Part shown: in pieces, positions 20,322-39,746 of the stretch
How the letters are laid out: every line of letters begins with the position of its first letter
Position numbering within the stretch: position 1 is the stretch's first letter
Origin: Desulfobacteraceae bacterium
Lineage (GTDB): Bacteria > Desulfobacterota > Desulfobacteria > Desulfobacterales > RPRI01
Length of the DNA: 39,746 nt
Direction: 5' to 3'
Assembly: GCA_003818505.1 (NCBI GenBank)
Contig: RPRI01000035.1
Location: 1 to 39,746, forward strand
The notes under the pieces: model-generated
The model's input: the letters and a program-made list of their open reading frames with translations, nothing else
Told to the model about the DNA's origin: nothing
Database searches by the model: none
Translations under genes and position numbers: made by a program

Positions 20322-21431
20322 TCATCCGCCGAATAAGGACAACAGATTCTGCGGGGCCATGTTTGCCTGGGCAAGCATCGCAGTGCCAGCCTGAAGCAGT
20401 ATCTGGTTCTTTGTGAAGCTCGTCATTTCAGCCGCCATATCAACATCACGAATGACCGACTCGGCTGCCTGAACATTTTCAACTGTTGTTGCAAGGTTGG
20501 CAGCAGCATAACTTAGCCGGTTCATTGTTGCGCCGATTTCTCCACGGCTTGTTGCAAGTGTATCGATCGCGGTATTGATGAGATCAAGATCGCCAAGCGC
20601 TGTGCCTGTGACAGCTGTAAGAGTCAGGTCCGACGCTGAAACCTTGTCAATACCGACGTTGATATAATGGTTTGAATCATTCTTTATACCGGTGATGAAG
20701 TTGCCTCCTGCCGCTGTAAAGACAAGAGTTGCGGCATTCAATGCAATGGCTGTCGCGACATAATTCGCTCCAAGGCTAAGCGTAATGCCTATGGACTCGA
20801 AATTAACTGTTTGGGCTCCGTTTGCAATTACCGCCGAAGTTTCGCTCTCGCCGGTTGTGCCGTTTGCAATTGTGAGCCTGCCGGTCGTGGCTGCGGTGAC
20901 TGTATAAGTTACGTTGTCCGTAACACCGCTGGTGCTGATGCTCGATAACCCTACCGTGGTGCGTTCCGCAGCAGTGTCAATAGTATCGCCGTAGGCCTGA
21001 ACTGCTGTGCCATATCCTCTGAGAACGGCTGTTCCGTTATATTCTGTCGCATTTGCGATACGGTCAAGTTCGTTCTTTAACGCCGTGACTTCGTTTTGTA
21101 TGTCCGTCGAGTTTCCTGAAGCGTTTGCTGAAGTTCCCTGGGTCGTGAGTTCTTTCAGACGGGTTAATATGTTCGAAATCTGGTCATAAGCACCTTCAGC
21201 CACCTGAAGTAATGCGATAGCTTCAGAAGTATTTCTTGAAGCAACTTTATAACTGGCGATATCCGCACGCATTCCTGAAGAAACAGCAAGACCGGCTGCG
21301 TCGTCCGCAGCAGAATTGATCCTGTAACCGGATGACAGTCTCTGAAGCGATTTGCCAAGACCGGCATCTGCAATACTCAACTGCCTGTGTGCGTTTATTG
21401 CCGCGATGTTGTTTTGAATTCTAAGTCCCAT
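20322..21431 (-). CDS. fliC: Flagellin
   Basis: The 369-residue protein has both conserved flagellin ends. The N-terminal D0/D1 starts MGLRIQNNIAAINAHRQL and includes LQRLSSGYRINSAADDAAGLA; the C-terminal D1/D0 has VENVQAAESVIRDVDMAAEM and ends in LLSLFGG. The short central domain (about residues 150-280) is rich in Ser and Thr, the usual targets of O-linked nonulosonic acid, and would be surface-exposed. It has no cysteine. The ATG has AAGGAGGA at good spacing. Transcription probably starts at the sigma-28-like site 153 bp upstream, and a strong terminator lies downstream, so it is a single-gene unit. The neighbouring Maf and sugar genes indicate that this flagellin is glycosylated. Confidence 0.97.
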   Translation of the reverse strand: MGLRIQNNIAAINAHRQLSIADAGLGKSLQRLSSGYRINSAADDAAGLAVSSGMRADIASYKVASRNTSEAIALLQVAEGAYDQISNILTRLKELTTQGTSANASGNSTDIQNEVTALKNELDRIANATEYNGTAVLRGYGTAVQAYGDTIDTAAERTTVGLSSISTSGVTDNVTYTVTAATTGRLTIANGTTGESETSAVIANGAQTVNFESIGITLSLGANYVATAIALNAATLVFTAAGGNFITGIKNDSNHYINVGIDKVSASDLTLTAVTGTALGDLDLINTAIDTLATSRGEIGATMNRLSYAAANLATTVENVQAAESVIRDVDMAAEMTSFTKNQILLQAGTAMLAQANMAPQNLLSLFGG

Positions 21432-21710: not shown

Positions 21711-22694
21711 TTACGCACATTTTAATCTGTGCAGACTGACCTGACTATCAAGGTGGTAGGCCTTAAAACAACCACCCAGACATTGTTCAAGATGGTCGCA
21801 TTGTCCGCACTCGTTGTCGGTTTTTAGCAGTTCAAATTTGGAATCTTTTGCTTTTTTATACATGGCTGAGAGGGATTCAATGGTGGTGTTCTCAGAAATC
21901 TGACCACACCGGACCGGGAACTGGTTACAGTGCCTGACGGTTCCGTCTATTCCGATCCAGCTGGCACAGTTTGGAGAAAGGCAACGAGTGGTTTTATTAT
22001 TCTTCAGATGAATATCAAGATACTTTCGGATGGCATCTCTGGTCCAGAAACAGACCGGAATATGATGATCGCGTGAAACGTTTACAAAACCCCAGAGTTT
22101 AAGTCTCCTTACAACATTATATAATATAATCTGTAATTTTTCTTTGTTATGGAAAATATTCTCCTGAGTATCCAGACTCAGGGCGATTCCACAACGCGCT
22201 TTAACATGTTCCTGCTGTTTTTGCAGGAGACCGGCAAGATTTCTTAATTTAACATATAACCTCTGAAAATCGGTCCGGGTGTTCACTACAACATGGAAGG
22301 TACGGTTGATGTCTTTATCAAAGAGATAGTTCTGGTTTGTTAATTTTCTGTTTGCGACAAAAAAATTATATGCGACCCTGTCATCCGGAAGCCATTTTAT
22401 CTTTTCGAGGACATCCTTTTGCAGCCCATTCGTAAAAAGTCTAACCTGTGAAACTTTTTTGTGGCAGGCGTCAAATATTTCAAGCAGATCAGGATGCAGT
22501 GTCGGTTCACCGCCCATCAGCTTAATCGCCCCGGCATCGACAAGCGACAGTGCCTTATGGAAAGTTTCCATGGGCATGTGCTTGCCGACTCTCATATTGG
22601 CATTAAAGCAATGGGGGCAGTTCGCGTTGCAGTCTTCGGTCAGAATGAGTCTGCATGTGTTTTCTATTTCAGACAGGTATTGAATAGTAGTCAT
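21711..22694 (-). CDS. Radical SAM/SPASM-type protein next to flagellin
   Basis: The 327-residue protein begins with the radical SAM cluster motif C-x3-C-x2-C at residues 22-29 (CNANCPHC). The GGEPTLHPDL motif of the SAM-binding region follows. The C-terminal third has a SPASM/twitch-like cysteine set (CLSPNC, GTVRHCNQFP, CGQCDHLEQCLGGC) expected to hold further iron-sulfur clusters. SPASM proteins often modify peptides or proteins by radical chemistry. The gene sits between flagellin and the glycosylation genes on the same strand, so flagellin or a glycan precursor is a plausible substrate, but nothing in the sequence proves it. The ATG has AAGG upstream. Confidence 0.85.
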   Translation of the reverse strand: MTTIQYLSEIENTCRLILTEDCNANCPHCFNANMRVGKHMPMETFHKALSLVDAGAIKLMGGEPTLHPDLLEIFDACHKKVSQVRLFTNGLQKDVLEKIKWLPDDRVAYNFFVANRKLTNQNYLFDKDINRTFHVVVNTRTDFQRLYVKLRNLAGLLQKQQEHVKARCGIALSLDTQENIFHNKEKLQIILYNVVRRLKLWGFVNVSRDHHIPVCFWTRDAIRKYLDIHLKNNKTTRCLSPNCASWIGIDGTVRHCNQFPVRCGQISENTTIESLSAMYKKAKDSKFELLKTDNECGQCDHLEQCLGGCFKAYHLDSQVSLHRLKCA

Positions 22695-22761: not shown

Positions 22762-23742
22762 TCAATTATGCCCGGAGGTCATCTCTTGCCAGGCGTTGTC
22801 AAGGGCGACGTATTCGCTTCTCCAGATTTCTTCGGGTATTCTTAAGGGGTCGGGTTGATAGTTCTCTCCCTGTAAATTATTAAGCCAGACCCGTGCAGCT
22901 TCTGTTTCAACAGTTTCCCCTTTTATTAAATTAGGTATCCGGGAAAGCGATTCCAGATCACCGTTAAAATAATCGGTCTGAAACAGGAGATACTCAAAAC
23001 GGTCTGTTCCAAGTAATTTACCCTTTAACTCGATCAGCAGATCTTCGGCTTCGGCAAATTTTGATGATATCATGGCAATGTTTGCCGAAATGAGGATCAG
23101 GGCCGGGTCCCGGCCCAGTTGATTCATGACCTCTGATAGGTATTTTTCAGCAATATAAAGATTCCCAGCAATTATTTCAGTCTCTATCAGTCCTGTATGC
23201 GCCGGGATCCATTCCGCATTGCAGCCAACCGCCTCCTTGTAGAAATGCCGGGCTTCTTCAGTTTTGCCCCAGCTCTGGTAGAGATTTCCCATGGCTGAGT
23301 TCTTCCGATAGGTATATAAGCCCCGGCAGAATTCTTTGTCCGGGAAGGAGATGTCGTTTTTACCAAGTTGTTTAAATATCCGGTCGGATAATTCAAACTG
23401 GTTCAGCTGTATCAAACATTCTCCATAACCGAGACGTAACTCATCGGATTGCGGAAATACTTGCAGGCCTTCCTGATATAAATCTGCCGCTGCCCTTAAT
23501 TCTCCTTCCCTGATATGGTTTTCCGCCATAAGCGAATATGCTTTTGACAACTGAAGGCTTTTTTTTAATGTTTCAGGATCAATACCGCGGATAAAACCGA
23601 CAAGCAGATCCAGCACATTGCCGCATTTCGCATGATCCTGCTGTTGTTCCAGCAAAGAGATTAACTGATGGAAAGTCTCTATTGTTTCAGGCTCTGGCAC
23701 CTGACCATATCGGGTTGACCTGTTGACTATTTCATCTGGCAT
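22762..23742 (-). CDS. TPR-repeat protein in flagellin glycosylation cluster
   Basis: The protein (326 residues from ATG 23742) is built of helical tetratricopeptide repeats, for example AYSLMAENHIREGELRAAAD and GNLYQSWGKTEEARHFYKEA, with a less regular C-terminus. There is no signal peptide or catalytic motif. It overlaps the 3' end of the Maf gene by 11 bp, so the two are probably translated together and may interact; TPR proteins often hold glycosyltransferase or export complexes together. An in-frame TTG at 23769 is possible but has no ribosome site. The specific role is unknown. Confidence 0.75.
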   Translation of the reverse strand: MPDEIVNRSTRYGQVPEPETIETFHQLISLLEQQQDHAKCGNVLDLLVGFIRGIDPETLKKSLQLSKAYSLMAENHIREGELRAAADLYQEGLQVFPQSDELRLGYGECLIQLNQFELSDRIFKQLGKNDISFPDKEFCRGLYTYRKNSAMGNLYQSWGKTEEARHFYKEAVGCNAEWIPAHTGLIETEIIAGNLYIAEKYLSEVMNQLGRDPALILISANIAMISSKFAEAEDLLIELKGKLLGTDRFEYLLFQTDYFNGDLESLSRIPNLIKGETVETEAARVWLNNLQGENYQPDPLRIPEEIWRSEYVALDNAWQEMTSGHN

Positions 23743-25624
23743 AAAAGTTTTTTTCCCTTTTAACTGCAAAAAATGTGGAAAGAATAAGCTGTCCTACAAC
23801 GGCAAACCAGTCTTTTAAAAGCAGAAATGATTTCAATGTCGCGAACTCTGCATTATAATACCGGTCAATGGTAAAATTCCTTTCCATTTCAATTTCGAAA
23901 TGGCTGCTCTGAATGACCATTTCGAATATTTTAAATGCAGGCAGAGATATAATGCCAGTCCTGATACCATAAAGTATTCCGGAAGCACCGGTGATCCGGT
24001 TGAGCAGATCCGGATTGGGCCTTTCACCTATCAGCATCGCGTGATTATCCAGAACAGATTCAATTATCTCGATGCCTTTCCTGCATTCTCTTATCGCGAT
24101 TTCCATTTCCGAAAGGCTGTTATCTATGACAGCGCCTATCCGTTTGATTTCGCCTTCCGTGTCTTTCTGTCCTGATTTTTCGGTATTCCATATCTCTTTT
24201 AGGTGGATCAGGGGATCAAAGGATGTTTTGCAGTATGTATCAAGCGCGCACCTGAGATCGAGCAGCAGGGAGCTCCTGATCCTGGCGCCACCTTCCGTGG
24301 CGTTGATACAGAGGCCGGTGTAACATTCAATCTGAACCTCAAAAGCTTTTCGCCCCTCCTCGAAGGATCTTGTGGTAAGAAGAATATCCTCATAATTGCC
24401 TTCAACCTCAATCGCGTCTTTCTGATATGCATCGAGGCAGTCGAAAACCATGCCTTTTACATGGGTCGATCCCGCTGGTTTAAATGAAAGATCCTGACCT
24501 ACCAGGATAATCGGAGAACATCCTATATACTGAGCAATGTTAAATGCGAAATTACCCACAAGAGGTCCCCCGGTAAGCGAGCCTTTGGGTATGTTGAGCC
24601 AGTGCATCAGTTCTTCATAACGATGTGCAATGATCTTGGGACCTTTATACGCATCATATGTTTCCGATGGAACAACCGGAGAGAACACGAAAAAAGTATC
24701 TTCAAGGTTGCCTCTGTCACGGAAAAACAAATCCTGACCGGGTCGTCTTTCGATGTTTGTCACAATATGGGGCCTTATGCCCGCCTCCAACAGAGGTTTT
24801 AAAGCAGCATCAACAGAAATCAGAACCGCTTTCTGCCGCGCTTCTTTCAACAGGTGAATATTCTTGTTCAGTGAGGGTCCGGCGCCGATCACGATTCCAG
24901 GTTTTCCGGCGAAGATGTTTTTGAATGCGATGATGCCCGGATCTTCAATAATCGGCCGGAGATTTGAGATTGTATGATAAATTCCTATCAGAGAATCATA
25001 CGGGTCATTTCCGATATGCTCGAACACATGGTTGATAGCATCCTGAAAAGACCGGGCTGCGTTTTCGTAATATTCTCCTTCAACCCGGTGAACGGCGGGC
25101 AGTATGATTATCTTCAGGTTCCTGGTATATTCCAGTACCCCTGGATTTCTCGCAAAATAATTTATGAATTCAACAAACAGCTCCTGTGGTTCCATGCCAA
25201 CGAAAAGATGGATCGCGGGGTGCATGATTGCCTTGCTGAAATCGAGAATTTCAAGGGCTTTTTTAAAAAGCCGGATATCTTTTTCGATAATCAGCATGTG
25301 CCGGATTTTCAATACTTCTGAAAAATCGTTCAGAAGGGTTACAAGCTGATACCCAAGGCCGAACCCGAACAGGGTAAGGAACGGAGCGAATTTGAGATCA
25401 AGCGATCTGATGTAATCGCCGCAATAATCAACGGGGTTCTTATTATCATAGCAGAGATATTCTTTCCCCCTGTCGCTGAACAGAATATCGGGCAGCGGGT
25501 CGTTCTTCCAGATCCTTATGACGGCAGGCGCAGGGCCGGGAACAGTTTCTCTAACTTCAGCGGAAAGTTTAGGGTATCTGCCCTGCAGTGCCAGTAAATT
25601 TTTTTCGTATATAGAGTTCATCAT
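23732..25624 (-). CDS. maf: Motility accessory factor (Maf), DUF115 flagellin glycosyltransferase
   Basis: The 630-residue protein belongs to the MAF_flag10/DUF115 family, whose members transfer pseudaminic or legionaminic acid onto Ser/Thr of flagellin in the cytoplasm. The central domain carries the signature AGKPGIVIGAGPSLNKNI near residue 246, then AVLISVDAALKPLLEAGIRPHIV and VGQDLSF. The N-terminal region (LTLFGFGLGYQL, HMLIIEKD) is also typical. Length fits the family (about 600-700). It lies downstream of a full set of sugar-activation genes and upstream of flagellin, all in the same direction. No ribosome site is clear before the double ATG (25624/25621). Sugar specificity cannot be read from the sequence. 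Confidence 0.92.
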   Translation of the reverse strand: MMNSIYEKNLLALQGRYPKLSAEVRETVPGPAPAVIRIWKNDPLPDILFSDRGKEYLCYDNKNPVDYCGDYIRSLDLKFAPFLTLFGFGLGYQLVTLLNDFSEVLKIRHMLIIEKDIRLFKKALEILDFSKAIMHPAIHLFVGMEPQELFVEFINYFARNPGVLEYTRNLKIIILPAVHRVEGEYYENAARSFQDAINHVFEHIGNDPYDSLIGIYHTISNLRPIIEDPGIIAFKNIFAGKPGIVIGAGPSLNKNIHLLKEARQKAVLISVDAALKPLLEAGIRPHIVTNIERRPGQDLFFRDRGNLEDTFFVFSPVVPSETYDAYKGPKIIAHRYEELMHWLNIPKGSLTGGPLVGNFAFNIAQYIGCSPIILVGQDLSFKPAGSTHVKGMVFDCLDAYQKDAIEVEGNYEDILLTTRSFEEGRKAFEVQIECYTGLCINATEGGARIRSSLLLDLRCALDTYCKTSFDPLIHLKEIWNTEKSGQKDTEGEIKRIGAVIDNSLSEMEIAIRECRKGIEIIESVLDNHAMLIGERPNPDLLNRITGASGILYGIRTGIISLPAFKIFEMVIQSSHFEIEMERNFTIDRYYNAEFATLKSFLLLKDWFAVVGQLILSTFFAVKREKNFYAR

Positions 25625-28686: not shown

Positions 28687-29550
28687 CTATGCCGATCCAA
28701 TATGGAAAATCTGATAGTGTGAGTAATAATCTATCTCTAATTCGTAAAATGCAATTGTACCTTCCGGCAACAAATTGGTTTTTACCGGCCACATTGATTG
28801 AGCTGATTCTTTGATCAGGTTTATAGGTAATGTAGTAAGATATTCCTCAGACCAGATAGGCCTGACATCTATCGGAATTAAAATGAAACCCATATTTATC
28901 GGGGTATCCAAATCGATTTTTCCGATGGGCAGGTTACCGTATATCGAACTTTTGTCTAAGCAGCTTCCCAGGCAAACCCAATCGTCATTATTTTCAGCAT
29001 CTACACGCAATTCAAATTCATTAATCTTTCCGTCTAATATTTTGTCATTAAGAGTTTGCCCGGTAAGGGCATAGTTGACTTTTTTCTCAATTTTTTTAGA
29101 ATAGCATTGGAACCAAAAAACAAAATCGGCTCCTTTAAGATCAACATTATGACCACGAATTTTCCCCCGTATCTTCATATTACGCATATCGGGATAACAG
29201 AGGCTGAGATCAAAACACATATGCTGATCTTTTTGATCCGGACGCAGAAGACAATGAAAGACAAGAGACAAGAAACCATATCCAGGGCTGGAATGGTTGG
29301 CATCTATCCACCATGGGCCGACAGAGAAAAGAAAACGTCGTCCAAGAGTATCTTCTTTTGAATAAAGCGCCGGAAGAGGGTACCCGTTACCGGCAATTCT
29401 ATCGTTGCCTGTATATGTCATCCAGGGAAACCCGCGGGAGGCATTTAAATTATATTTTTTCCGGACCGGGATATCCGATCTTTTGACAGCGTATGCTTTC
29501 CCGTCAAGTATGAAGCGATATCCGGTTTGATCATTCACGATATTTGTCAC
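28687..29550 (-). CDS. Uncharacterised protein in glycosylation cluster
   Basis: I do not recognise this 287-residue protein. It starts at GTG 29550 with a weak GGTAGA upstream. It is rich in aromatic residues and beta-strand-like segments (FLFSVGPWWIDANHSSPGYG, DFVFWFQCYS, DDWVCLGSCLDKSSIYGNLP), with no signal peptide, no transmembrane segment and no known catalytic motif. The pattern of Trp/Tyr-rich strands suggests a beta-sandwich, as in carbohydrate-binding or lectin-like folds, but this is only an impression. Base composition looks more AT-rich than in the adjacent sugar genes. Position, just upstream of the acetyltransferase and glycosyltransferase, suggests a part in glycan synthesis. 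Confidence 0.6.
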   Translation of the reverse strand: MTNIVNDQTGYRFILDGKAYAVKRSDIPVRKKYNLNASRGFPWMTYTGNDRIAGNGYPLPALYSKEDTLGRRFLFSVGPWWIDANHSSPGYGFLSLVFHCLLRPDQKDQHMCFDLSLCYPDMRNMKIRGKIRGHNVDLKGADFVFWFQCYSKKIEKKVNYALTGQTLNDKILDGKINEFELRVDAENNDDWVCLGSCLDKSSIYGNLPIGKIDLDTPINMGFILIPIDVRPIWSEEYLTTLPINLIKESAQSMWPVKTNLLPEGTIAFYELEIDYYSHYQIFHIGSA

Positions 29551-29688: not shown

Positions 29689-30477
29689 TTAACTGTGCAG
29701 GCGGATCGGAATGCCGGCGTTAAGGATCTGAGAACGCGTCTGCATGGGATTTTCATCTTTGAAACAGAAATATGTCCCTGCTGCAACCGCATCTGCGCCG
29801 GCTTCGATAAAACCATCCACAAAGTGGGAGGCCAGACCGCAGCCGCCTGATGCGACAACCGGGATCGAAACCTCTTTTGCCACTTCGCGGATAACCTGCA
29901 GATCCAGGCCCAGTCGGGTGCCGTCGCGGTCGATGCATGTCAGCAGGATTTCCCCAGCTCCCCGCCGTTCACCTTCAACAGCCCAGCGGACTGGATCCAT
30001 ATCGGTTTTTACTCTTCCGCCTTTTATGTACACCTGGTTCGTGCCATTGCCGTTTGCACGATAATCAATACTCAGAACGACGCATTGAGTTCCGAAGCTG
30101 TCTGAAGACCTGCGGATCAGGTCCGGGTCTTCAACCGCCGCGGTATTTATGCTGACTTTGTCGGCGCCGCTGGAAAGAAGCTGACGGAAATCCTCATTGC
30201 ACCGGATACCCCCGCCCACAGTGATCGGCATGAAAATTTCTTCAGCAATACGGCTGACAAGTTCCGTGAGTATTGCCCGCTCCTGGAGAGCGGCATCGAG
30301 ATCGAGAAAAATCAGCTCGTCGGCTGCCTGGGCTTCATAAATTTTAGCCTGTGATATCGGGTCTCCTATTTCAATAAAATCTTCAAACCGGATCGTTGTC
30401 ACCAGCACCATTCGTGGCTTCGTCCCGTTTCGGGTCTGTTTTATCTGGAGTTTTGGAATCAGGCGCCGCTTCAGCAT
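29689..30477 (-). CDS. HisF-like subunit of sugar amidotransferase system
   Basis: The 262-residue protein is a HisF-family (beta/alpha)8 barrel, but not a normal histidine enzyme. In HisF the catalytic Asp11 lies in IPCLDV; here the segment reads IPKLQIK, with Gln at that place. The second catalytic Asp is kept (VLSIDYRANG), as are the phosphate loops TVGGGIR and ASGGCG. Paralogues of this kind accompany WbpG/PseA-type enzymes and HisH, where the pair supplies ammonia rather than making imidazole glycerol phosphate. ATG 30477 overlaps the HisH-like stop by 7 bp; a longer frame to 30573 lies inside the neighbour and is rejected. Confidence 0.87.
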   Translation of the reverse strand: MLKRRLIPKLQIKQTRNGTKPRMVLVTTIRFEDFIEIGDPISQAKIYEAQAADELIFLDLDAALQERAILTELVSRIAEEIFMPITVGGGIRCNEDFRQLLSSGADKVSINTAAVEDPDLIRRSSDSFGTQCVVLSIDYRANGNGTNQVYIKGGRVKTDMDPVRWAVEGERRGAGEILLTCIDRDGTRLGLDLQVIREVAKEVSIPVVASGGCGLASHFVDGFIEAGADAVAAGTYFCFKDENPMQTRSQILNAGIPIRLHS

Positions 30478-31094
30478 GATGACTTCCAGTTGATGAAATT
30501 TTCCAGTAACTTCATCCCGTAATCCTGGCTTTTCTCCGGATGGAACTGGGTTGCGAAAATATTTCCCCTGCATATCGCGGCTGTTAACGGTTTGCCATAG
30601 TCACAGGTTGCGACAATATCAGTATCATCGTCGCACTTCAGATAAAAGGAATGGACGAAATAAAAGTCAGGAGCGGCCGGCAACCCTTCAAACAGCGGGC
30701 ATTCAGGATTGAACCGGATATCGTTCCAGCCTGTATGGGGCACCCTCAGGGAAACGTCTGACGGTTGCAGGTGCACCACATCGCCGTTGATCCATCCCAG
30801 GCCCTGATGTTCCCCGCCTTCAAAGCTGCGACGCGCCATTGCCTGCATTCCCAGGCATATTCCCAGAATCGGTTTGCCCTGGACAAATACAGCCTGGTGG
30901 AGTGCGTCTATGAAACCGCCTGCCCGCAGATTGCGGATGCAATCCTTGAAAGCGCCGACTCCTGGCAGTACAATCCTTTCGGCATTGGCTAGATCAGCCG
31001 GATTATTACATATAGTTACCTCCGCCGCGATCATTTCAAAGGCATGATAGACCGACCGAATGTTGCCCATGCCATAATCAATGATTCCGATCAT
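30471..31094 (-). CDS. HisH-like glutamine amidotransferase subunit
   Basis: The 207-residue class I glutaminase has the full triad: Cys80 in GICLGMQ, and His185 and Glu187 in FHPEKSQ. It releases ammonia from glutamine for its synthase partner. Together with the overlapping HisF-like gene (7 bp) and the amidotransferase gene 3 bp upstream, it forms the three-part system known from Pseudomonas WbpG-HisH2-HisF2, where the product carries an acetamidino group. A role in histidine synthesis is less likely because no other his gene is near. The ATG has a strong GGGGG upstream. Confidence 0.9.
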   Translation of the reverse strand: MIGIIDYGMGNIRSVYHAFEMIAAEVTICNNPADLANAERIVLPGVGAFKDCIRNLRAGGFIDALHQAVFVQGKPILGICLGMQAMARRSFEGGEHQGLGWINGDVVHLQPSDVSLRVPHTGWNDIRFNPECPLFEGLPAAPDFYFVHSFYLKCDDDTDIVATCDYGKPLTAAICRGNIFATQFHPEKSQDYGMKLLENFINWKSSC

Positions 31095-31097
31095 CGT

Positions 31098-32315
31098 TTA
31101 TCCCCCTGCCGCCGCTCTTAAAAATACTTCATTACGGCGATTCCAGCGCTCCAGTTGAATTTCAGCCTGCTTGCGCGGCATAGCGCCATATCGGGGCCAC
31201 GAATCAAAATCGTGAACCTTTTTTCCCGGCATGGTCTTTCCTGTATCATGCTGGTAAGGTGACACCTGATGGCTCAGGGCGATCTCCATGAATTCCTGTT
31301 CGGTAAGTCCTATATATTCAAGTAAAATCCCGAGGCTCGGGGGACGCTTGCCCTCATGTGTTTCAATCATTCCCATGGCTTCATCTCTTTTCAGGCGGTG
31401 ATTGCGGATGTCAATGGAAGCCAGATGGCACGGCCGGCTATAGCCCCGTTTAATGAATTTGATATAATCCCTGGTTCCCTGAAGATAGCACTCGATTTTT
31501 TCATATTCATAGCCCTTCGGAACGTTCTCGACTTCGTCCCCTTTCCATCCCAGCTCCCGGCTTATAATTTCTGACTGCCGTTTGACGTCCCACGGGATAA
31601 AGGAACCCAGGCAGACCGAACGGTAGTTGAGTTTTCGCAGTAGCTTGAGGGGTGGATAAGAAAAGGGCTTCAAATCCCGTTCGGCGACGTCGCCTTCCAG
31701 CCGGACAAACATGTCTTCAGCTGTGATACCGAGATTGATATAGCGGTTAAAACGTTTTTCATCGACTTCTTCCGCCTGACCATAGCTGTAGTAAGCAGTG
31801 TACTCGGCTGAAGGTTCTCCCCAGAAAACCAGCGGAATATTATAATTGACAGCGACCCACATGGGGTAGGAGAAAATGCCTGCGTGACAGTGCCAGCAGA
31901 AATCTCCTTTTTCCAGAAAGCTTTGCAGCATGAGTTTCTGTACAACTTTCCAGTTGGGTGTGAAGACATGCATATCGACTCCCAGCTCGCGAACAGTCCG
32001 GAGGGTGTTCTCAATGAGATTAGGTCTCAGAAAACCGTGATCTAATCGAACGACGAGGGGTTTGAGCCCATATTCTCTGACCAGATGATAAAGTGTCCAG
32101 GTACTGTCCTTGCCGCCGCTGAAAGGGACAATACAGTCATAATCGTATCTGCCCCGGTAAAGATCAATCAGATTTTCAAGGTCTTTTTTCCTGGCCTGCC
32201 AGTCGATGACGGTTTGCTTGTATTCATGCTGGCGGCAGATATTGCAGACACCTTCATTATCAAAGACGATGGTTTCGTGGGTTTGCGGCAGTACGCATCG
32301 AGTACACCGTTTCAT
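31098..32315 (-). CDS. N-acetyl sugar amidotransferase (WbpG/PseA/LegX family)
   Basis: The 405-residue protein has an N-terminal four-cysteine knuckle (C4, C7, C24, C27) and an ATP pyrophosphatase PP-loop, SGGKDS, at 66-71. It is a typical match to the WbpG/PseA/LegX family. These enzymes activate an N-acetyl group of a sugar with ATP and add ammonia, turning acetamido into acetamidino. In Campylobacter, PseA modifies pseudaminic acid on flagellin. Ammonia would come from the HisH/HisF-like pair immediately downstream. The ATG has AAGGGAG. The likely substrate is the nonulosonic acid or its precursor made by this operon. Confidence 0.93.
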   Translation of the reverse strand: MKRCTRCVLPQTHETIVFDNEGVCNICRQHEYKQTVIDWQARKKDLENLIDLYRGRYDYDCIVPFSGGKDSTWTLYHLVREYGLKPLVVRLDHGFLRPNLIENTLRTVRELGVDMHVFTPNWKVVQKLMLQSFLEKGDFCWHCHAGIFSYPMWVAVNYNIPLVFWGEPSAEYTAYYSYGQAEEVDEKRFNRYINLGITAEDMFVRLEGDVAERDLKPFSYPPLKLLRKLNYRSVCLGSFIPWDVKRQSEIISRELGWKGDEVENVPKGYEYEKIECYLQGTRDYIKFIKRGYSRPCHLASIDIRNHRLKRDEAMGMIETHEGKRPPSLGILLEYIGLTEQEFMEIALSHQVSPYQHDTGKTMPGKKVHDFDSWPRYGAMPRKQAEIQLERWNRRNEVFLRAAAGG

Positions 32316-32379: not shown

Positions 32380-33687
32380 TCATGTTAAACGATGGAATCC
32401 CGAATGTGCCACCGGGCCTTTCAGGTGCTGTTCGATTTCCCCTTTTTCCAGCAACCCCGCGATAAAGACAAAAGTTTCATTAACCGCATCAAAATATTTT
32501 TCAATATGTGATTTACTGTGAGCATAAGTAGCATAAAACCTGCCGGATGCGAGAAAGCCCCGTTCGAGCATCATCTGGGTAAACAAAGTTATTATGGCTT
32601 GTCCGTTTTCGTATTCAAACGAAAAATGGCTGAGTGGAGGAATTCCACTGACATATATTTTCAGTCCTGCCTGCCGGGCAGCAAGCTCCCATCCCGACTG
32701 GATCCGGTTCCCGACATCTATAAGATGTTTTGACACATCCAGTCTCTGGTGTTTCCTGATCGTGGCCAGGGCTGCTACCGGGCCGATCCTTTCGGTCCAG
32801 TAAGTGCTGCTTATGAAAGTGGATTGGGCTGACTGCATTACAGCCTCTTTACCGATGACCGCGCCCATTGGATAACCATTGCTGATTGCTTTGGCGAAAA
32901 CGGCCATATCGGGCTCAATCCCAAAGACCAGGTGGCTCCCGCCTGAATTTAATCTCAACGCTGCCGTTATCTCGTCAAAAATCAGCACGGCCCGGATTTC
33001 CGAAGCAAGCTCTCTCACCTTTTCAAGAAAACCGGCTTCCGGATAACGATCACGAACCGGTTCCATCACAATAGCGGCAAGATCGTTTTTGTTTTCAGAT
33101 ATGATTTTTTCCAGATCTTCAATATGATTATAGCGAAAAGGAAGGGCGGTTCCCGCAAGGCCGCCTGGTACACCCAGCGGATCCAGTCCGGGCAGCAGAT
33201 GCTGATCCAGCCGGTTGCCTTTTCCAAGATTTGCGGCAAGGTACCAGTCATGCCAGCCATGGTATCCGCAAAAGGCTATCTTGTCGCGCCTGGTATGGGC
33301 GCGCGCTATTCGCACCGCTATGGCCATGGACTCTCCGCCGCATCGCGCATAGCGGACCATATCCGCCCATCCGTGAATCCGGCATAACAAATCCGCCAAT
33401 TCAACCTCTTCGGGGCAGTTTAATGAGCAACTGGTTCCGGAGTCGATTGCGGCATGAACCGCAGCATTGACATCCGGATCAGCAAATCCAAGGACACATG
33501 CACCAATACCGTTTATGCTCATGTCGATATATTTTTTCCCGTCAAGGTCCCATGTTTCAGCGCCTTTCGTCCTTGTATAGTAGCCGGGCCACTGTCCGGG
33601 CGCAAACATCTCCGGGCGTTTTGAAAGCAATTGGGTGCCACCGGGAATGCGCTTCCGCGCTCTTTGCTGCATCAGAATATTTTTCAT
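32380..33687 (-). CDS. Class III (GSA-type) aminotransferase
   Basis: The 435-residue PLP enzyme belongs to the class III family near glutamate-1-semialdehyde aminomutase. It has the PLP-phosphate region RCGGESMAIAVRIAR, Asp238 in LIFDEI, and the Schiff-base Lys266 in VFAKAISNGYPMGAVIG. A GSA aminomutase for haem is unlikely because the gene lies inside a sugar operon, 7 bp after the cytidylyltransferase. Class III members in such clusters probably aminate a keto-sugar; the substrate is not known. The ribosome site is weak and translation may be coupled to the upstream gene. It is a second aminotransferase besides the DegT protein. Confidence 0.88.
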   Translation of the reverse strand: MKNILMQQRARKRIPGGTQLLSKRPEMFAPGQWPGYYTRTKGAETWDLDGKKYIDMSINGIGACVLGFADPDVNAAVHAAIDSGTSCSLNCPEEVELADLLCRIHGWADMVRYARCGGESMAIAVRIARAHTRRDKIAFCGYHGWHDWYLAANLGKGNRLDQHLLPGLDPLGVPGGLAGTALPFRYNHIEDLEKIISENKNDLAAIVMEPVRDRYPEAGFLEKVRELASEIRAVLIFDEITAALRLNSGGSHLVFGIEPDMAVFAKAISNGYPMGAVIGKEAVMQSAQSTFISSTYWTERIGPVAALATIRKHQRLDVSKHLIDVGNRIQSGWELAARQAGLKIYVSGIPPLSHFSFEYENGQAIITLFTQMMLERGFLASGRFYATYAHSKSHIEKYFDAVNETFVFIAGLLEKGEIEQHLKGPVAHSGFHRLT

Positions 33688-33694
33688 ATAATTA

Positions 33695-34480
33695 TCAAAT
33701 TACCGTTTCGGTAAATCCCTCGATTTTATCCTTTTCAAGGGCTGGTTTCCAACCCTGGTTAGGAACTATATGGGTATTAATTTTTTTTATATCCGGATTA
33801 GCATCCAGAAAAGCGATTACATCTTCCATGGTAAATACGGGGTTAATTTTATAAAAATTTGATATTAATATGCATATCAGTTCAAAATCTTCAGGATAAT
33901 CCACTGTCAGGCGGTATTCTCCCCAGTTTACGGCCAGATCCTTTCGGAATGTTGAAAAGAATCCTCTATTTTTCCAGAAATAGAAAGTAACATGCTCCCG
34001 GTCGGAAGGCTTTTTTGCATCTTTCCATGCGCGTTCGAGCGCTATACAGGAAAAAACCTCCACATCCATTCCATCGGGATATGTTTTGCCCTCCGGAGGA
34101 GCGGTATTGGCAACATAATCATAGTTTCCTGAATGGTACGTGCCAATCATACTATCGATGATATTTGGATCAATTAAAGGGCAGTCGGCAGTTAAGCGTA
34201 TTATGGTTTTGCACTTGAATTCTGTTGCTGCATGATAATACCTTCCAAGAACATCCTCCAGACTGCCCCGGTAACAAAAAACAGCTTCTTTTTTGCAGAA
34301 ATCATAAATTGCATCATCCTGCGGCTCGCTGCTGGTCGCAACAATAATTTTATCCACACTCTTTGCCGATCCGACTCGTTCAAGCATATAGGAGAGCATC
34401 GGGCGGCCGTTGATATTTAAAAGGACTTTTCCTGGCAGTCTGCTTGAATTCATTCTTGCCTGTATAATTGCGTCTATCAT
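33695..34480 (-). CDS. SpsF-like cytidylyltransferase
   Basis: The 261-residue protein starts with the nucleotide-binding signature IIQARMNSSRLPGKVLLNI and has DYVANTAPPEGKTYPDGMDVEV, as in the SpsF/NeuA-related cytidylyltransferases. In nonulosonic acid pathways this enzyme activates the sugar acid with CTP to give the CMP-sugar used by Maf-type transferases. The gene is 15 bp downstream of the formyltransferase gene and has GGGAGAGG before its ATG. Catalytic Asp and Arg positions look intact. Sugar specificity cannot be assigned from sequence. Confidence 0.9.
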   Translation of the reverse strand: MIDAIIQARMNSSRLPGKVLLNINGRPMLSYMLERVGSAKSVDKIIVATSSEPQDDAIYDFCKKEAVFCYRGSLEDVLGRYYHAATEFKCKTIIRLTADCPLIDPNIIDSMIGTYHSGNYDYVANTAPPEGKTYPDGMDVEVFSCIALERAWKDAKKPSDREHVTFYFWKNRGFFSTFRKDLAVNWGEYRLTVDYPEDFELICILISNFYKINPVFTMEDVIAFLDANPDIKKINTHIVPNQGWKPALEKDKIEGFTETVI

Positions 34481-34495: not shown

Positions 34496-35422
34496 TTACT
34501 GAATCTTCTGACCGATTTTGAGGTAAACATTCCGCTCGATATCATCCATCGGAGGAAAAATATCATAATCTTCAATGATAATAACATCGTCCACTCCGCT
34601 GACAACGATTTTGGTTTTCTTGCCCGGGATCAGATCAAGTATCTTGCCGGGTCCTTGTAAGAGATAGCCGTTCTGGGAACCGAGGCGCGCTTTCCAGATG
34701 ATCAGGTGCTTGTTCAGAAACTTGGATTCCACTCCGGCGTATGGTTTCGAGAAGACCCGAATCTGGTTCACAATCCGACGGGCGGGTGTGCTCCAGTCGA
34801 TTCGGTTTTGCTGATCGGTCAGGGGGCCATAGTAGCTTCCGTTGACCGGCTGCGGGATTCGCGGTGCTGTGCCTGACAGGATATCGTCTATGACCTGTTC
34901 GAAAAGTTCGGCTCCGACTCTCATGCAGCGGTTATAAAGACTGAATCCGGTATCTTCTTCCGTTATCGGGACTTTATTTTGTACTATCATGTCGGCCGAG
35001 TCAATTTTCCCATCTATGTAATGGATGGTGACGCCGGTTTCCTTTTCACCGTTTAACAATGCCCAGGCAGTAGGCACGCAGCCGCGATAGTGGGGCAAAT
35101 ACGAAGGGTGGATGTTTACAATACCCAGGGGCGGTATAGCGACGAGCTCTCTGGGAAATATCTTGCGATAATAAATTGAAAGAATAACATCCGGTTTGAG
35201 CGCTTGTATGTCGGTGATATAATCCCTGGTCAATTGCTTGGGCATATCGCACTGAATCTTATTCTCTGAAGCAATCCCTTGGACCGACTTGTATCCATAG
35301 ACTTTATCCAGGAGCAATTCATAAGTCACGATACGGGGAATCTCGACTTCTTTTCTTAATAATGTTTCGATACAATCAACAGCTATTTGCTGACAACCGA
35401 ATACGATTACACGACGTTTCAT
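34496..35422 (-). CDS. Sugar N-formyltransferase (methionyl-tRNA formyltransferase fold)
   Basis: The 308-residue protein belongs to the formyl_trans family. The catalytic residues are present: Asn103 and His105 in VNIHPSYLPHYRG, and Asp141 in IDGKIDSADM. The C-terminal half (GSYYGPLTDQQNRIDWSTPA, VFSKPYAGVES) resembles sugar formyltransferases such as ArnA-N and WbtJ rather than Fmt. They use N10-formyl-tetrahydrofolate to formylate an amino sugar. Its place between the cytidylyltransferase and NeuB-family genes points to an N-formylated nonulosonate or precursor. The ATG has GGAG. Confidence 0.9.
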   Translation of the reverse strand: MKRRVIVFGCQQIAVDCIETLLRKEVEIPRIVTYELLLDKVYGYKSVQGIASENKIQCDMPKQLTRDYITDIQALKPDVILSIYYRKIFPRELVAIPPLGIVNIHPSYLPHYRGCVPTAWALLNGEKETGVTIHYIDGKIDSADMIVQNKVPITEEDTGFSLYNRCMRVGAELFEQVIDDILSGTAPRIPQPVNGSYYGPLTDQQNRIDWSTPARRIVNQIRVFSKPYAGVESKFLNKHLIIWKARLGSQNGYLLQGPGKILDLIPGKKTKIVVSGVDDVIIIEDYDIFPPMDDIERNVYLKIGQKIQ

Positions 35423-35435
35423 AATATTACTCCTT

Positions 35436-36278
35436 TCAGTCCGAGGGGCGGCGCAACCAGAAGAATTGGGCTTCCGCTTTACTCGGGTCGATCCGACCTT
35501 CGCCGCACATGATGTTTACTTCCCTGCAATTTCGGATCATATCGGACATTTGCCCCGGGTCTACCGAGAGGCTATGATCAGGCCCCTCCATGTTCCTGTC
35601 CAGCGTGAAATGCTTTTCGATGATCCTGGCTCCGACCGCCACCGCGATAACCGGCGCATGAATTCCCAGGGTGTGGTCCGAATAGCCGATGGGACAGGGG
35701 TACAATTGCCCGAGGTTCCGAATGACATTCAGGTTCACGTCTTCAAGCGCTGTGGGATAAGCTGAAACACAGTGCAACAGCGCATAGGGAACATGATTTT
35801 CCGTAAAGATATCAACAGCCGCATCGATTTCAGAACGACAGGCCATCCCGCGCGAGGCTATTACCGGCTTGCCGGCCGAGGCAATCTTGCGTACCAGCAT
35901 CAGATTGACCAGTTCGAACGAGGCAATTTTAAAAGCGGGGACATCTATGCCTGTCAGGAAATCGACGCTGTCAGTATCAAACGGGGTCGAGAAAAAAGTC
36001 ACGCCTTCGGCTTCCGCAAAAGCCTTCAGGTTCGCCTGGACTTTAAAGGAAAGTTCACATTTTTTAAGTATCGCAAAAATAGGGCTGTCCTGTTTGATCC
36101 GCTTTTCGGTGATATAGGTCTGGAATTTTACGGCATTCACTCCGGACCTTGCCGCCGCCCGGATGAGCTTTTCTGCGATACGGGCATCTCCGTTGTGATT
36201 GATTCCGACCTCTGCTATGAAATAGACCGGTTGGCCGTCACCGATGGGTTGTCTATTGATTTCAATTTTTCGATCCAT
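35436..36278 (-). CDS. NeuB-family nonulosonic acid synthase lacking the SAF domain
   Basis: The 280-residue protein is a complete NeuB barrel: AEVGINHNGD near residue 23, VNAVKFQTY, FFSTPFDTDSVDFL, KIASFELVNLML, LLHCVSAYPT, IGYSDHTLGI and IEKHFTLDRNMEGPDHSLS. Such enzymes condense a six-carbon amino sugar with phosphoenolpyruvate to a nine-carbon acid. PseI, LegI and NeuB usually have a C-terminal SAF (antifreeze-like) domain, for about 340-350 residues. Here the frame ends at FFWLRRPSD, where SAF would begin, and the next gene follows 13 bp later, so the domain is really absent. SAF normally covers the active site and contacts the sugar, so specificity may differ. The ATG has GAGGAA. Confidence 0.9.
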   Translation of the reverse strand: MDRKIEINRQPIGDGQPVYFIAEVGINHNGDARIAEKLIRAAARSGVNAVKFQTYITEKRIKQDSPIFAILKKCELSFKVQANLKAFAEAEGVTFFSTPFDTDSVDFLTGIDVPAFKIASFELVNLMLVRKIASAGKPVIASRGMACRSEIDAAVDIFTENHVPYALLHCVSAYPTALEDVNLNVIRNLGQLYPCPIGYSDHTLGIHAPVIAVAVGARIIEKHFTLDRNMEGPDHSLSVDPGQMSDMIRNCREVNIMCGEGRIDPSKAEAQFFWLRRPSD

Positions 36279-36361: not shown

Positions 36362-37147
36362 TCACCAGCAGCTCAGGCCGCCATCGACGACAAGGTTCTG
36401 CCCTGTTGTGTATGTTGCGGCTGAAGAAGACAAATAGAGTATTGCCCCGATCATCTCTTCCGCATTTGCCATACGCTCCATGGGGCATCTGTATGCGTAA
36501 TTGTCGACAAAATTTTTCCCCTGCGGTGATTCCGGATTAAAAATTCCCCCCGGTGAAACGCAATTGACCCTTATTCCGCATGATGCAAGATGCACGGCAA
36601 AATAGCGTGTCATCTGGATGATCCCGGCCTTTGTGGCGCCATATACCTCCGAGTTTCTGCGCGCACAATCGGTGTATATACGGTAATCGGGGCTGACCAG
36701 GCCATAAACGGATCCTATATTAACTATGTTCCCGCTTTGTTTATTTCCCTTTAGCTTTCCTGCAAAAGCCTGGGTGCAAAAAAAAGTTCCTTTCAGATTG
36801 ACGTCTGTGACCCAGTCAAATGATTCTTCCGGCCTCTCCTCGAAAGGTTCAAAGCAGCTTACCCCCGCATTATTAACAAGAATATCGAGTCGTCCCCGGT
36901 CGGAAAATATCCGGTTGACTGTACATGCTACCGAAGCTCTGTCCGTGATATCCCCCTGGTAATATGCGACACGGCTGGAATGAACCATCTTCTCTTCGTT
37001 AAGCCGATTATCTGTGCCGAATACGACGGAGCCGGCTTTATCGAATGCTGCGCATATTTCATGTCCAAGCTGGCCGGTGGCTCCGGTTACCCAGACGATC
37101 CTGTTTTTCAGACTGAATAGTTTGTCCAGATAATTCTCATGAGGCAT
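36362..37147 (-). CDS. Short-chain dehydrogenase/reductase (PtmA-like)
   Basis: The 261-residue SDR has the cofactor motif TGATGQLG at 21-28, NNAG at 92-95, Ser146, and the active-site Y-x3-K at 169-173 (YGATK). It ends with VVDGGLSCW. The best parallel is PtmA of Campylobacter legionaminic acid clusters, an SDR required for sugar synthesis, whose exact substrate is debated. The start lies inside the end of the MNIO-like gene (11-bp overlap) with AAGGA upstream, so translation is coupled. It probably oxidises or reduces a sugar intermediate with NAD(P). Confidence 0.87.
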   Translation of the reverse strand: MPHENYLDKLFSLKNRIVWVTGATGQLGHEICAAFDKAGSVVFGTDNRLNEEKMVHSSRVAYYQGDITDRASVACTVNRIFSDRGRLDILVNNAGVSCFEPFEERPEESFDWVTDVNLKGTFFCTQAFAGKLKGNKQSGNIVNIGSVYGLVSPDYRIYTDCARRNSEVYGATKAGIIQMTRYFAVHLASCGIRVNCVSPGGIFNPESPQGKNFVDNYAYRCPMERMANAEEMIGAILYLSSSAATYTTGQNLVVDGGLSCW

Positions 37148-37922
37148 TGAAATAATCCTTCAGTCTGTTGTATCTCTCCAGCTCCCGTATAATGCCGTCA
37201 TGATCCTTGTAAAATTCCACCGTTAAATATTTTACCGGAAACATCTCAATCATTGACTGAACCTCCCGGTATATTGATTCATCGGGCAGATCGTGGGCAT
37301 CGTAGGCAATATTGTTCGAATCGATTCCATGGCCGGAGATATGCAGCTGAATCATGTTATTAATCGGAAGTGTCGCCAGATAGTCCCGGTAATCGATTTT
37401 TTTATTGTATGCCGTAATTTTGCCGTGGGCGATATCAAGCAGAAGGTGTATATTATTTTTTGTGACAACATCCGTTATAAAATCACTTTCTGTGATATAG
37501 CAGTATGCCGGTGTCGGAAAATAATTCGTGTTTTCAACCCCGATCTCTATTCCTTGCGGTAAAAACGAACGAAGCCATTTAATATTCATTGCCGCATTTT
37601 CCAGCAATTCTTTTCTTGAATACTGCCTGCCGCCCGGCTGATACATTCCGTTCCGGACCAGTGGCATGTCACAGCAGGCTGCCATGTGAAAGGTGACAAG
37701 CTCCAGTTCCGGCTTGGAGAGAATTGAGTTATTAATATATTGTTTTATTTCGTTATTCCAGTTGTGAATAATATTGACATCAAAGTGTATTAATTCCTGT
37801 TTGGGAAGTTGTGTCTGGATGCACCACTCTCTGCATTCCAGACAATCGCTGAGCATGATGATTTGTTCAGCATATTTGCCCTCTTTGAATAAATGCGATA
37901 TAGGCGCAGCCAGTTTGAGCAT
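37137..37922 (-). CDS. DUF692/MNIO-like TIM-barrel protein
   Basis: The 261-residue protein is a xylose-isomerase-like TIM barrel that best resembles the DUF692 family (multinuclear non-haem iron oxidases such as MbnB and TglH). The expected ligands appear in order: His79 (VTFHMAA), Glu130 (GVENTNY), Asp163 and His166 (LLDIAHG), His194 (LHISGHG), Asp208 and His210 (YDAHD), and Glu236 (TVEFYKD). The same ligand set also occurs in sugar isomerases and endonuclease IV, so the call rests on the LP...QLHISGH...DAHD.P pattern. MNIOs modify peptide Cys, Asp or other residues, usually with a partner protein, which is absent here. The gene overlaps the SDR gene by 11 bp. The substrate is unknown. Confidence 0.62.
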   Translation of the reverse strand: MLKLAAPISHLFKEGKYAEQIIMLSDCLECREWCIQTQLPKQELIHFDVNIIHNWNNEIKQYINNSILSKPELELVTFHMAACCDMPLVRNGMYQPGGRQYSRKELLENAAMNIKWLRSFLPQGIEIGVENTNYFPTPAYCYITESDFITDVVTKNNIHLLLDIAHGKITAYNKKIDYRDYLATLPINNMIQLHISGHGIDSNNIAYDAHDLPDESIYREVQSMIEMFPVKYLTVEFYKDHDGIIRELERYNRLKDYFNAS

Positions 37923-37970: not shown

Positions 37971-39254
37971 TTAAAGATTGGCGGAGCGGCTGTTTACGGC
38001 CCAATCCCGCGATTTATCTATGGTTGTCCGGATATTTTCCGGTAATATGGCAGTTCGGGGAGTTTCAATATACGCTTTCCTGCCCAGACTTTTTTCTTTT
38101 AACAAAGATCGGACAGTGTCGGCGACGTAGCTTGCATCCTCGATGGTCAGTTTGGCAGAGAGCGGCAAGCTGACTGTCTGTCGCCCGATTTGCATTGCGT
38201 TGGGGTAATCCGTCGGTTGCCACCCGAAGGTTTTACGGTAATAGGGATGCTCAGGTATGCTTAAATAGTGGACCCCGACGCCGATTTTATTTCTGGTCAT
38301 CCCATCTATAAACTGGTCTCGGCTTAAACCGGTCCGGACGCTATCGATCAAAATCGTGTATAAATGATAGGCATGGCGAGTATCTTTTTCAGGTTCGGCC
38401 GGAAGTTTCACGGGCAGATCACTGAATGCCGCCTGATAGAAATCCCAGATTTCTTTTCGCTTACGCCAGTTCTGTTCCACGCGCATCAATTGATGAATTC
38501 CGATTGCCGCCTGAAGATCCATCATGTTATATTTAAAACCGCATTCAACAACTTGGTAATGTTTATAGCCGGAATCACTGAAGCGGTGCCATGCATCTTT
38601 ACTCATTCCGTGCAGAGCCAGGGTCTTAATTCGGGCGGCATCTTCTTCACGTCGGGTAATAACCATACCGCCCTCGCCGGTTGAGACATTTTTTGTAACA
38701 TAGAAACTGAAACATCCGAAATCTCCGCCAGTTCCTGCCTTTTCTCCCTTGTACTCAGTTTCAACCGAATGGGCGCAATCTTCAATGATTTTCAAACTAT
38801 AACGTTCGGCAATATCGTGCAGCCTGTCGAGGTTACAGGGGCGTCCTGCTAAATGAACCGGAAGTATCGCGCGGGTTCTGTGAGTAATTTTTTCTTCAAT
38901 ATTATCCGGGTCAATATTCATCGTCACAGGGTCGACATCTGCCAATACAGGGGTTGCACCTGCATGAATAATCGCATTAATTGTCGCACTGAATGTCATC
39001 GGTGTTGTTATAATTTCATCTCCAGGGCCGATTCCCGCAACAAGAATACTGAGATGAAGTGCTGCTGTACATGAGTTTAGTGCTACCGCGTATGAACCAC
39101 CTTTGTAGGTACAGAAATCCCTCTCAAATCTGGCCACTTTGGGGCCTGTTCCCAACCAGCAACTTTTCATGCTTTCGACCACTTCCTGAATTTCTGCATC
39201 CTCAATTGCAGGTTCTCCGAAGACCAGAAAATCCTTTCGAACAGAATGTGTCAT
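37971..39254 (-). CDS. DegT/DnrJ/EryC1-type sugar aminotransferase (PseC/LegC-like)
   Basis: The 427-residue PLP enzyme belongs to the DegT/StrS family. Signatures are LNSCTAALHLSILVAGIGPGD, Asp159 in IIEDCAH, and the PLP Lys188 in CFSFYVTKNVSTGEGG. The family adds an amino group to 4-keto sugars such as UDP-4-keto-6-deoxy-hexoses, as PseC and LegC do in pseudaminic and legionaminic acid synthesis. It is the first gene of the operon: a consensus sigma-54 promoter lies 73 bp upstream, and the ATG has AGGAG. The C-terminal ~40 residues are an extra tail. No PseB/LegB dehydratase or PseG/LegG hydrolase is in the window. Confidence 0.93.
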   Translation of the reverse strand: MTHSVRKDFLVFGEPAIEDAEIQEVVESMKSCWLGTGPKVARFERDFCTYKGGSYAVALNSCTAALHLSILVAGIGPGDEIITTPMTFSATINAIIHAGATPVLADVDPVTMNIDPDNIEEKITHRTRAILPVHLAGRPCNLDRLHDIAERYSLKIIEDCAHSVETEYKGEKAGTGGDFGCFSFYVTKNVSTGEGGMVITRREEDAARIKTLALHGMSKDAWHRFSDSGYKHYQVVECGFKYNMMDLQAAIGIHQLMRVEQNWRKRKEIWDFYQAAFSDLPVKLPAEPEKDTRHAYHLYTILIDSVRTGLSRDQFIDGMTRNKIGVGVHYLSIPEHPYYRKTFGWQPTDYPNAMQIGRQTVSLPLSAKLTIEDASYVADTVRSLLKEKSLGRKAYIETPRTAILPENIRTTIDKSRDWAVNSRSANL

Positions 39255-39342: not shown

Positions 39343-39505
39343 TAATTGTTGCCATATAATTTACCGGTAAATCAATGTGTTGATAAAATAAACTTATGGC
39401 AAAAAATAGCGGGCGGCAAATTTTTCCGGATATTTAACCGTTAATTTAATCGAAACGTGTTTTTGACAACTGCTGCAACAACAGAAAAAACACACTTTGG
39501 GGACG

Positions 39506-39519
39506 GTCAATAGCTTGAC
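39506..39519. promoter_or_regulatory. FleQ/FlrA-like palindromic box 1
   Basis: GTCAATAGCTTGAC is a palindrome with arms GTCAA/TTGAC. It agrees closely with the FleQ box as I recall it (GTCaNTAAAtTGAC). It lies about 165 bp upstream of the sigma-54 promoter, a usual distance for an enhancer site. Confidence 0.5.
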
Positions 39520-39722: not shown

Positions 39723-39746
39723 TTGATTTTCTTGAGCTTGCCCAAA

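Follow-up and report, generated by a model that had tools for sequence, protein, structure and literature searches.

On balance, we favour the view that the gene at positions 37137..37922 on the minus strand of the window (the whole 39,746-nucleotide stretch analysed) encodes a metal-dependent TIM-barrel enzyme from a distinct branch of the DUF692/multinuclear iron oxidase (MNIO) superfamily, which is dedicated to nonulosonic-acid (NulO) biosynthesis and supplies the aldose used by NeuB. The analyses establish its fold family, the conservation of its ligand positions, its linkage and fusion to NeuB, and the local absence of the hydrolases NeuC and PseG; from these we infer that metal is bound, that the enzyme acts upstream of NeuB, and which types of bond change are plausible.

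The DUF692 gene belongs to a series of sugar genes on the minus strand and stands close to the upstream end of that series, whose members are transcribed in the order DegT, DUF692, SDR, NeuB, formyltransferase, cytidylyltransferase, HemL-like aminotransferase, WbuX, HisH and HisF. Beyond the sugar genes the same strand carries a Maf-like gene, then flagellin, FliD and FliS genes, the last three being named from their open reading frames (ORFs). The features are as follows.

37971..39254, minus strand: DegT-family aminotransferase, ArnB/PseC-like (NCBIfam 354 and 350 bits, both below cut-off)
37137..37922, minus strand: DUF692/MNIO-superfamily protein of the nonulosonate-linked branch (261 aa, ATG start; PF05114 60.3 bits, AlphaFold2 model, Foldseek)
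37215..37787, minus strand: stretch with the nine putative metal ligands (alignment, column counts, residue check)
36362..37147, minus strand: short-chain dehydrogenase, SDR (NCBIfam SDR matches, those shown all below cut-off)
35436..36278, minus strand: NeuB-family nonulosonate synthase, 280 aa (TIGR03569 298.8 bits, below cut-off; PF03102 over cut-off)
34496..35422, minus strand: formyltransferase (NCBIfam 212 bits, below cut-off)
33695..34480, minus strand: cytidylyltransferase, KdsB-like and presumably SpsF-like (PF02348 120.6 bits)
32380..33687, minus strand: class III (HemL-like) aminotransferase (PF00202 137.7 bits)
31098..32315, minus strand: N-acetyl sugar amidotransferase WbuX (TIGR03573 334 bits, over cut-off)
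30471..31094, minus strand: HisH-like glutaminase (TIGR01855 234.9 bits, over cut-off)
29689..30573, minus strand: HisF/WbuZ-like protein (TIGR03572 285.8 bits, just below cut-off)
23732..25624, minus strand: candidate Maf-type flagellin glycosyltransferase (PF01973 142.7 and PF20157 36.6 bits)
20322..21431, minus strand: flagellin (named from ORF reading, no profile)

An initial sequence-only reading of the window had set the DUF692 gene between the SDR and DegT genes with an 11-bp overlap; the overlap applies on the SDR side only, since the DegT gene is 48 bp apart from it. The window and the contig both end at 39746, so the upstream view is confined to the short stretch before DegT. The closest relative, at locus L030 (61% identical), has the same DegT-to-WbuX gene order; a GNAT gene comes next, and HisH/HisF homologues were not found at that locus. 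The window ORF at 28687-29550 (minus strand), for which Pfam gave no match at E<=0.01, has a 278-aa homologue at a similar place in L030, and is a conserved protein without assigned family in the flagellin-sugar cluster.

Profile and structural comparisons assign the window protein to the DUF692/MNIO superfamily, in agreement with the sequence-only reading. PF05114 matches it at 60.3 bits (cut-off 25), over residues 104-237 only, and PF01261 at 19.6 bits (cut-off 31.1); within the window's genome the DUF692 gene is the single PF05114 match. All 49 aligned sequences (49/49) match PF05114 at E<=0.01, and 23/49 match PF01261, with a best value of 5e-7. The AlphaFold2 model (pLDDT 97.6, pTM 0.93) is a TIM barrel, as had been proposed, and Foldseek places TglH (8hi7, E 2.5e-11), 3BWW and MbnB first, followed, after the DUF692 chains, by ketose 3-epimerases, other presumed sugar isomerases and endonuclease IV. 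The model of L067, from the second of two clades in the branch, gives a similar picture, with TglH, 3BWW and MbnB again at the top. The comparison that the sequence-only reading had put forward as a check, PF05114 against PF01261 together with Foldseek, hence came out with PF05114 ahead by ~40 bits and MNIO folds nearest; the contrary outcome it had named, a better match to a sugar-isomerase profile, did not occur.

In searches of PDB sequences, the only significant matches of the family profile were DUF692/MbnB chains; up to E 1 the remainder were mevalonate diphosphate decarboxylases, at E 0.3 or worse, with no isomerase. Profile comparison with eight canonical-type MNIOs gave a probability of 99 and E 4.6e-18, whereas the value against the endonuclease IV Nfo was E 0.079 (seven-sequence set) and the corresponding hhalign probability of 1.0 was insignificant. 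The branch thus resembles the known MNIO/DUF692 enzymes (MbnB, TglH, ChrH, HvfB, BufB, ApyH; PF05114) in its best profile (49/49), in its best fold (for one member per clade) and in eight of nine metal-ligand positions, but differs from them in having His for the Fe3-site Asn, a partial PF05114 match, linkage to NeuB and no precursor seen. It shares the superfamily fold with endonuclease IV and with the PF01261 isomerases/ketose 3-epimerases, the window protein being, unlike the PF01261 isomerases, below the PF01261 cut-off. Scores against curated equivalogs are far from the cut-offs (ApyH 64.5/400, HvfB 53.3/360 and BufB 50.6/310 bits), and in a midpoint-rooted tree with eight sampled BufB/HvfB-like MNIOs, the nonulosonate-linked branch stands apart from the MNIOs with 100/100 support.

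A motif scan of genome contigs returned 56 loci, or 57 with the window; the scan required a motif around E130-N131-N133-P136-T137, which in part imposes conservation at those residues and leaves out any relatives that lack it. A single-sequence scan of genome contigs gave no relative. The plasmid search returned 49 records, each with <60% identity and with less than 80% of the query covered, and a plasmid search with a second-clade domain gave no match. The branch spans more than 10 phylum labels, those of the tree loci including Omnitrophota, Campylobacterota, Fidelibacterota, Verrucomicrobiota, Planctomycetota, Bacteroidota, Acidobacteriota, Bdellovibrionota, Pseudomonadota, Doudnaibacteriota, Parcubacteria and Thermodesulfobacteriota, together with a Myxococcota label given to records titled Deltaproteobacteria. 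Two records of the branch are titled as archaea. The DUF692 proteins of L044 (in a record named Euryarchaeota) and L046 (Neomarinimicrobiota) are nearly identical, reflecting either recent transfer or a binning error.

NeuB is present in 50/57 loci, i.e. 21/25 in the window clade and 29/32 in the second clade, related genomes and MAGs making these locus counts non-independent; in the seven loci without it (L038, L044, L045, L052, L064, L068 and L080), the contig breaks off inside the gene or a short way past it, in the direction in which NeuB is expected. The exact order DegT-DUF692-SDR-NeuB is found in 15/25 window-clade loci, an SDR homologue (>=40 bits, i.e. at least 40) in 24/25 and a HemL-like aminotransferase in 16/25. 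The fetched second-clade stretches contain SDR, DegT and HemL homologues in 0/32 cases, with NeuB kept; ORF reading of five of them (L004, L006 and L025-L027) reveals that NeuB adjoins the DUF692 gene and that a NeuA-like gene follows downstream, in 4/5 with an intervening methyltransferase-like gene, and Pfam confirms the NeuB-DUF692 pair of L025. At two second-clade loci, L023 (on the same contig as L058) and L065, NeuB-SAF-DUF692 forms one open frame. No NeuB was found within ~1.5 kb in 11 loci of other PF05114-type proteins (L010-L020). The branch recurs as a component of nonulosonate (sialic-acid-like) loci, and the recurrence of the same gene beside NeuB in many bacterial groups makes a sugar-pathway enzyme most likely. 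This conserved linkage backs two earlier suggestions, that the gene is set in a flagellin nonulosonate cluster and that its product acts on a sugar. Cassettes of the type DegT-DUF692-SDR-NeuB-HemL are also borne by five IMG/VR contigs (L100-L104), whose fetched flanks appear glycan-like by eye.

The nine putative ligands of the window protein, H46, H79, E130, D163, H166, H194, D208, H210 and E236, align with conserved residues of canonical-type MNIOs, and in part with those of TglH and MbnB. The TglH iron ligands are listed in PMC10880893 as H71, H107, E151, D184, N187, H216, D229, H231 and E258; by motif order the window residues correspond to these, the first two through a presumed match to the TglH numbering. 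Columns were counted over the window and 48/56 loci (49 sequences; L073, L075, L076, L079, L080, L082, L083 and L084 left out). The alignment was also repeated with L048 substituted for L021, which lies on the same contig. H46, E130, D163 and H166 occur in 49/49 sequences, H194, D208 and H210 in all rows except one truncated, and E236 in all except the two truncated rows (L038 and L052) and L065 (V), such that eight of the nine positions are invariant or nearly so. The H79 column has His in 22/25 and Gln in 3/25 window-clade sequences and Asp in 24/24 of the second clade, L054, which has Asp, being placed there by the tree after it was first counted with the window clade (26 vs 23 rows). Because E130 is inside the search motif, the scan itself accounts for part of its invariance; the remaining ligand positions are outside the motif, and, judged from the aligned columns, ligand conservation is more than chance.

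The order of the ligands, which the sequence-only reading had taken as the complete MNIO set, is less informative: all the residues it listed are there, together with a His that it had missed, but at the nine positions we take to be the metal ligands of E. coli Nfo the letters are H-H-E-D-H-H-D-H-E, an order identical to that of the window protein. Ligand order is hence non-diagnostic, cannot by itself separate oxidase from hydrolase, and was rejected as proof of an MNIO. The assignment as a canonical MNIO oxidase was not borne out either, given the unreached equivalog cut-offs, His in 49/49 sequences at the Fe3-site position (TglH N187, window H166) vs Asn in 8/8 canonical-type MNIOs, and Asp throughout the aligned second clade in place of the Fe1-site His of MNIOs. 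These substitutions bear on the proposal that the protein is a working multinuclear iron oxidase acting on a NulO or its precursor, e.g. to form a ketone, with the product used by the SDR or the HemL-like aminotransferase. Such an activity would suit the nearest profile and folds, the presence of possible ligands at all nine positions in the window protein, and the frequent SDR and HemL-like genes of the window clade, but fits poorly with the two altered iron sites and with a second clade whose fetched stretches show no SDR, DegT or HemL homologue yet keep NeuB. Many, though not all, carriers belong to anaerobic groups, Pelagibacteraceae being aerobic, and an oxidase would leave the absence of NeuC and PseG unexplained; we regard it as unlikely.

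NeuC/PseG hydrolases were found in 0/57 branch loci, many of them truncated, vs 25/40 control NeuB loci from the window's phylum, with NeuC and PseG profiles made from 3 and 2 seeds, respectively. The controls, 40 loci from 39 genomes, comprise 30 NeuB loci and 10 lower-listed ones picked for short NeuB frames (284-309 aa), contributing 23/30 and 2/10 matches, of which that at L174 is weak (55 bits). When the comparison is restricted to loci where NeuB is flanked by 4 kb or more in each direction, as it is in only 25/57 branch loci, the counts are 0/25 vs 18/30 (Fisher p 8e-7). Three controls (L146, L149 and L153), with DegT, HemL, PseG, NeuB, WbuX, HisH, HisF and GNAT homologues, resemble the window cluster but have PseG and are without DUF692 or SDR. 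The exclusion is local, since NeuC reaches its cut-off elsewhere in 6/17 carrier genomes and PseG in 1/17; in the window's genome neither hydrolase is found at cut-off, with two weak NeuC matches, and the same holds at cut-off for the seven second-clade genomes that were searched. In other loci an additional gene separates NeuB from the cytidylyltransferase; it was considered as a decayed PseG and rejected, WecD-type acyltransferases being the best matches and the PseG model absent (7/13 members scanned).

PseB-type dehydratases are also rarer in branch loci, at 3/25 vs 17/30 controls with full flanks (p 0.0007) and 2/12 in the window clade alone (p 0.04), with a profile from which one seed with an internal stop was dropped and with L054 counted in the window clade in these full-flank data. 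Two strong PF02719 matches on other contigs of the window's genome mean that a dehydratase could sit elsewhere in it; as a genome-wide PseB test PF02719 was rejected, because it matches 17/17 genomes and 14/14 controls, as was an extended-SDR profile, whose matches probably include the SDR gene. The rarity of PseB-type dehydratases leaves room for a nucleotide-free route. It is a tentative and, in our view, doubtful possibility that DegT, DUF692 and SDR constitute a new upper half of NulO biosynthesis replacing PseB/LegB, PseC and PseG/NeuC, maybe nucleotide-free, with the DUF692 protein as the first small-sugar enzyme of the MNIO superfamily.

As a supplier of aldose to NeuB, the DUF692 enzyme would catalyse the step immediately ahead of NeuB, with a small sugar or nucleotide sugar as substrate, through isomerisation or epimerisation (e.g. 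2-epimerisation) of a hexose derivative or through hydrolysis of a nucleotide sugar. It would thereby stand in for NeuC or PseG, and in the window clade it would work with the adjoining DegT aminotransferase and SDR. The local mutual exclusion suggests the same pathway slot as that of the NeuC/LegG and PseG nucleotide-sugar hydrolases, whose fold is unrelated to that of the DUF692 protein, and the finding of NeuC/PseG in 0/57 loci points to sugar supply rather than oxidation. The isomerase-type folds that follow the DUF692 chains in Foldseek also count in favour, as do sugar-enzyme domains of other kinds in further NeuB loci with no NeuC/PseG nearby. NeuB-SAF-AP_endonuc_2 fusions occur at L159:7893-9770 and L180:5512-7764, a PF01261 TIM barrel lies beside DegT as a separate gene at L154, and at L183:5921-7420 NeuB is fused to a cupin resembling mannose-phosphate isomerase. 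The NeuB-PF01261 fusions are like the DUF692 branch in having a TIM barrel joined to NeuB and a local D-x-x-H motif, but belong to another Pfam family with weak profile similarity (23 and 10 bits). According to PMC9000132, a Serratia marcescens strain whose capsule contains KDN and Neu5Ac depends, for making sialic acid, on a NeuB that carries an added COG1082 isomerase-type domain; this requirement would fit aldose supply. NeuB is fused to a cytidylyltransferase at L182:2-1504.

Counting against aldose supply, the closest solved relatives by sequence are MNIOs, not isomerases or hydrolases, and 15/40 controls are also without NeuC/PseG, 13 of them without a profile-detected TIM barrel (L154 and L159 have one). 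To our knowledge, at the level of abstracts, the described DUF692 members modify peptides. Action on the product of NeuB would yield the same NeuB linkage, and an epimerase working after NeuB on a NulO or CMP-NulO, of which 8-epi or 4-epi legionaminic acids are epimerised examples, would accord with the isomerase-like fold family and with the SDR-NeuB-DUF692-KdsB order of L050, L051 and L053, where an acyltransferase-like gene precedes KdsB in two. We consider such a role quite improbable, given that it explains neither the 0/57 count for NeuC/PseG nor the source of the NeuB substrate in second-clade genomes.

The kind of protein is already known; we found no account of the branch, the residue change or the pathway, and the literature searched, mostly outside subscription journals, contained no description of a DUF692 protein in NulO biosynthesis. 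MNIOs are mined as peptide-modifying enzymes, and the PF05114 label, 'RiPP precursor modification enzyme', would misannotate the NeuB-linked branch. If the branch supplies the sugar for NeuB, it would fill a gap in the NulO pathway of uncultured bacteria, and perhaps archaea; the MNIO-type metal site would then also serve ordinary sugar chemistry, which bears on an origin of the oxidases from isomerase- or endonuclease-IV-like ancestors.

A peptide substrate is unlikely for the branch, and its members are probably not peptide oxidases. The genes flanking DUF692 on either side encode enzymes and leave no space for a precursor, no partner protein is seen beside it up to the contig end at 39746, and a 38-aa Cys-rich ORF upstream of DegT (39394-39510) is not conserved, comparison with 61 related loci giving nothing better than E 1; RiPP modification was rejected on these grounds, in line with the initial observation that no precursor is seen. 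The further suggestion of action on flagellin is not supported, the NeuB linkage and the NeuC/PseG pattern favouring a sugar. We judge it highly improbable that the protein modifies flagellin or another peptide like known MNIOs and lies in a glycan operon through association with flagella: kinship to MNIOs and flagellin homologues in the window and 3/32 second-clade stretches would suit such a role, but the window itself accounts for the 1/25 in its own clade (counts on fetched stretches with the window flagellin as sole query, which distant or divergent flagellins would escape), whereas NeuB is nearly always there and in two cases fused. A radical SAM gene at 21711-22694 (minus strand; PF04055 45 bits) adjoins the flagellin gene of the window, and has a possible role in flagellin or cofactor modification.
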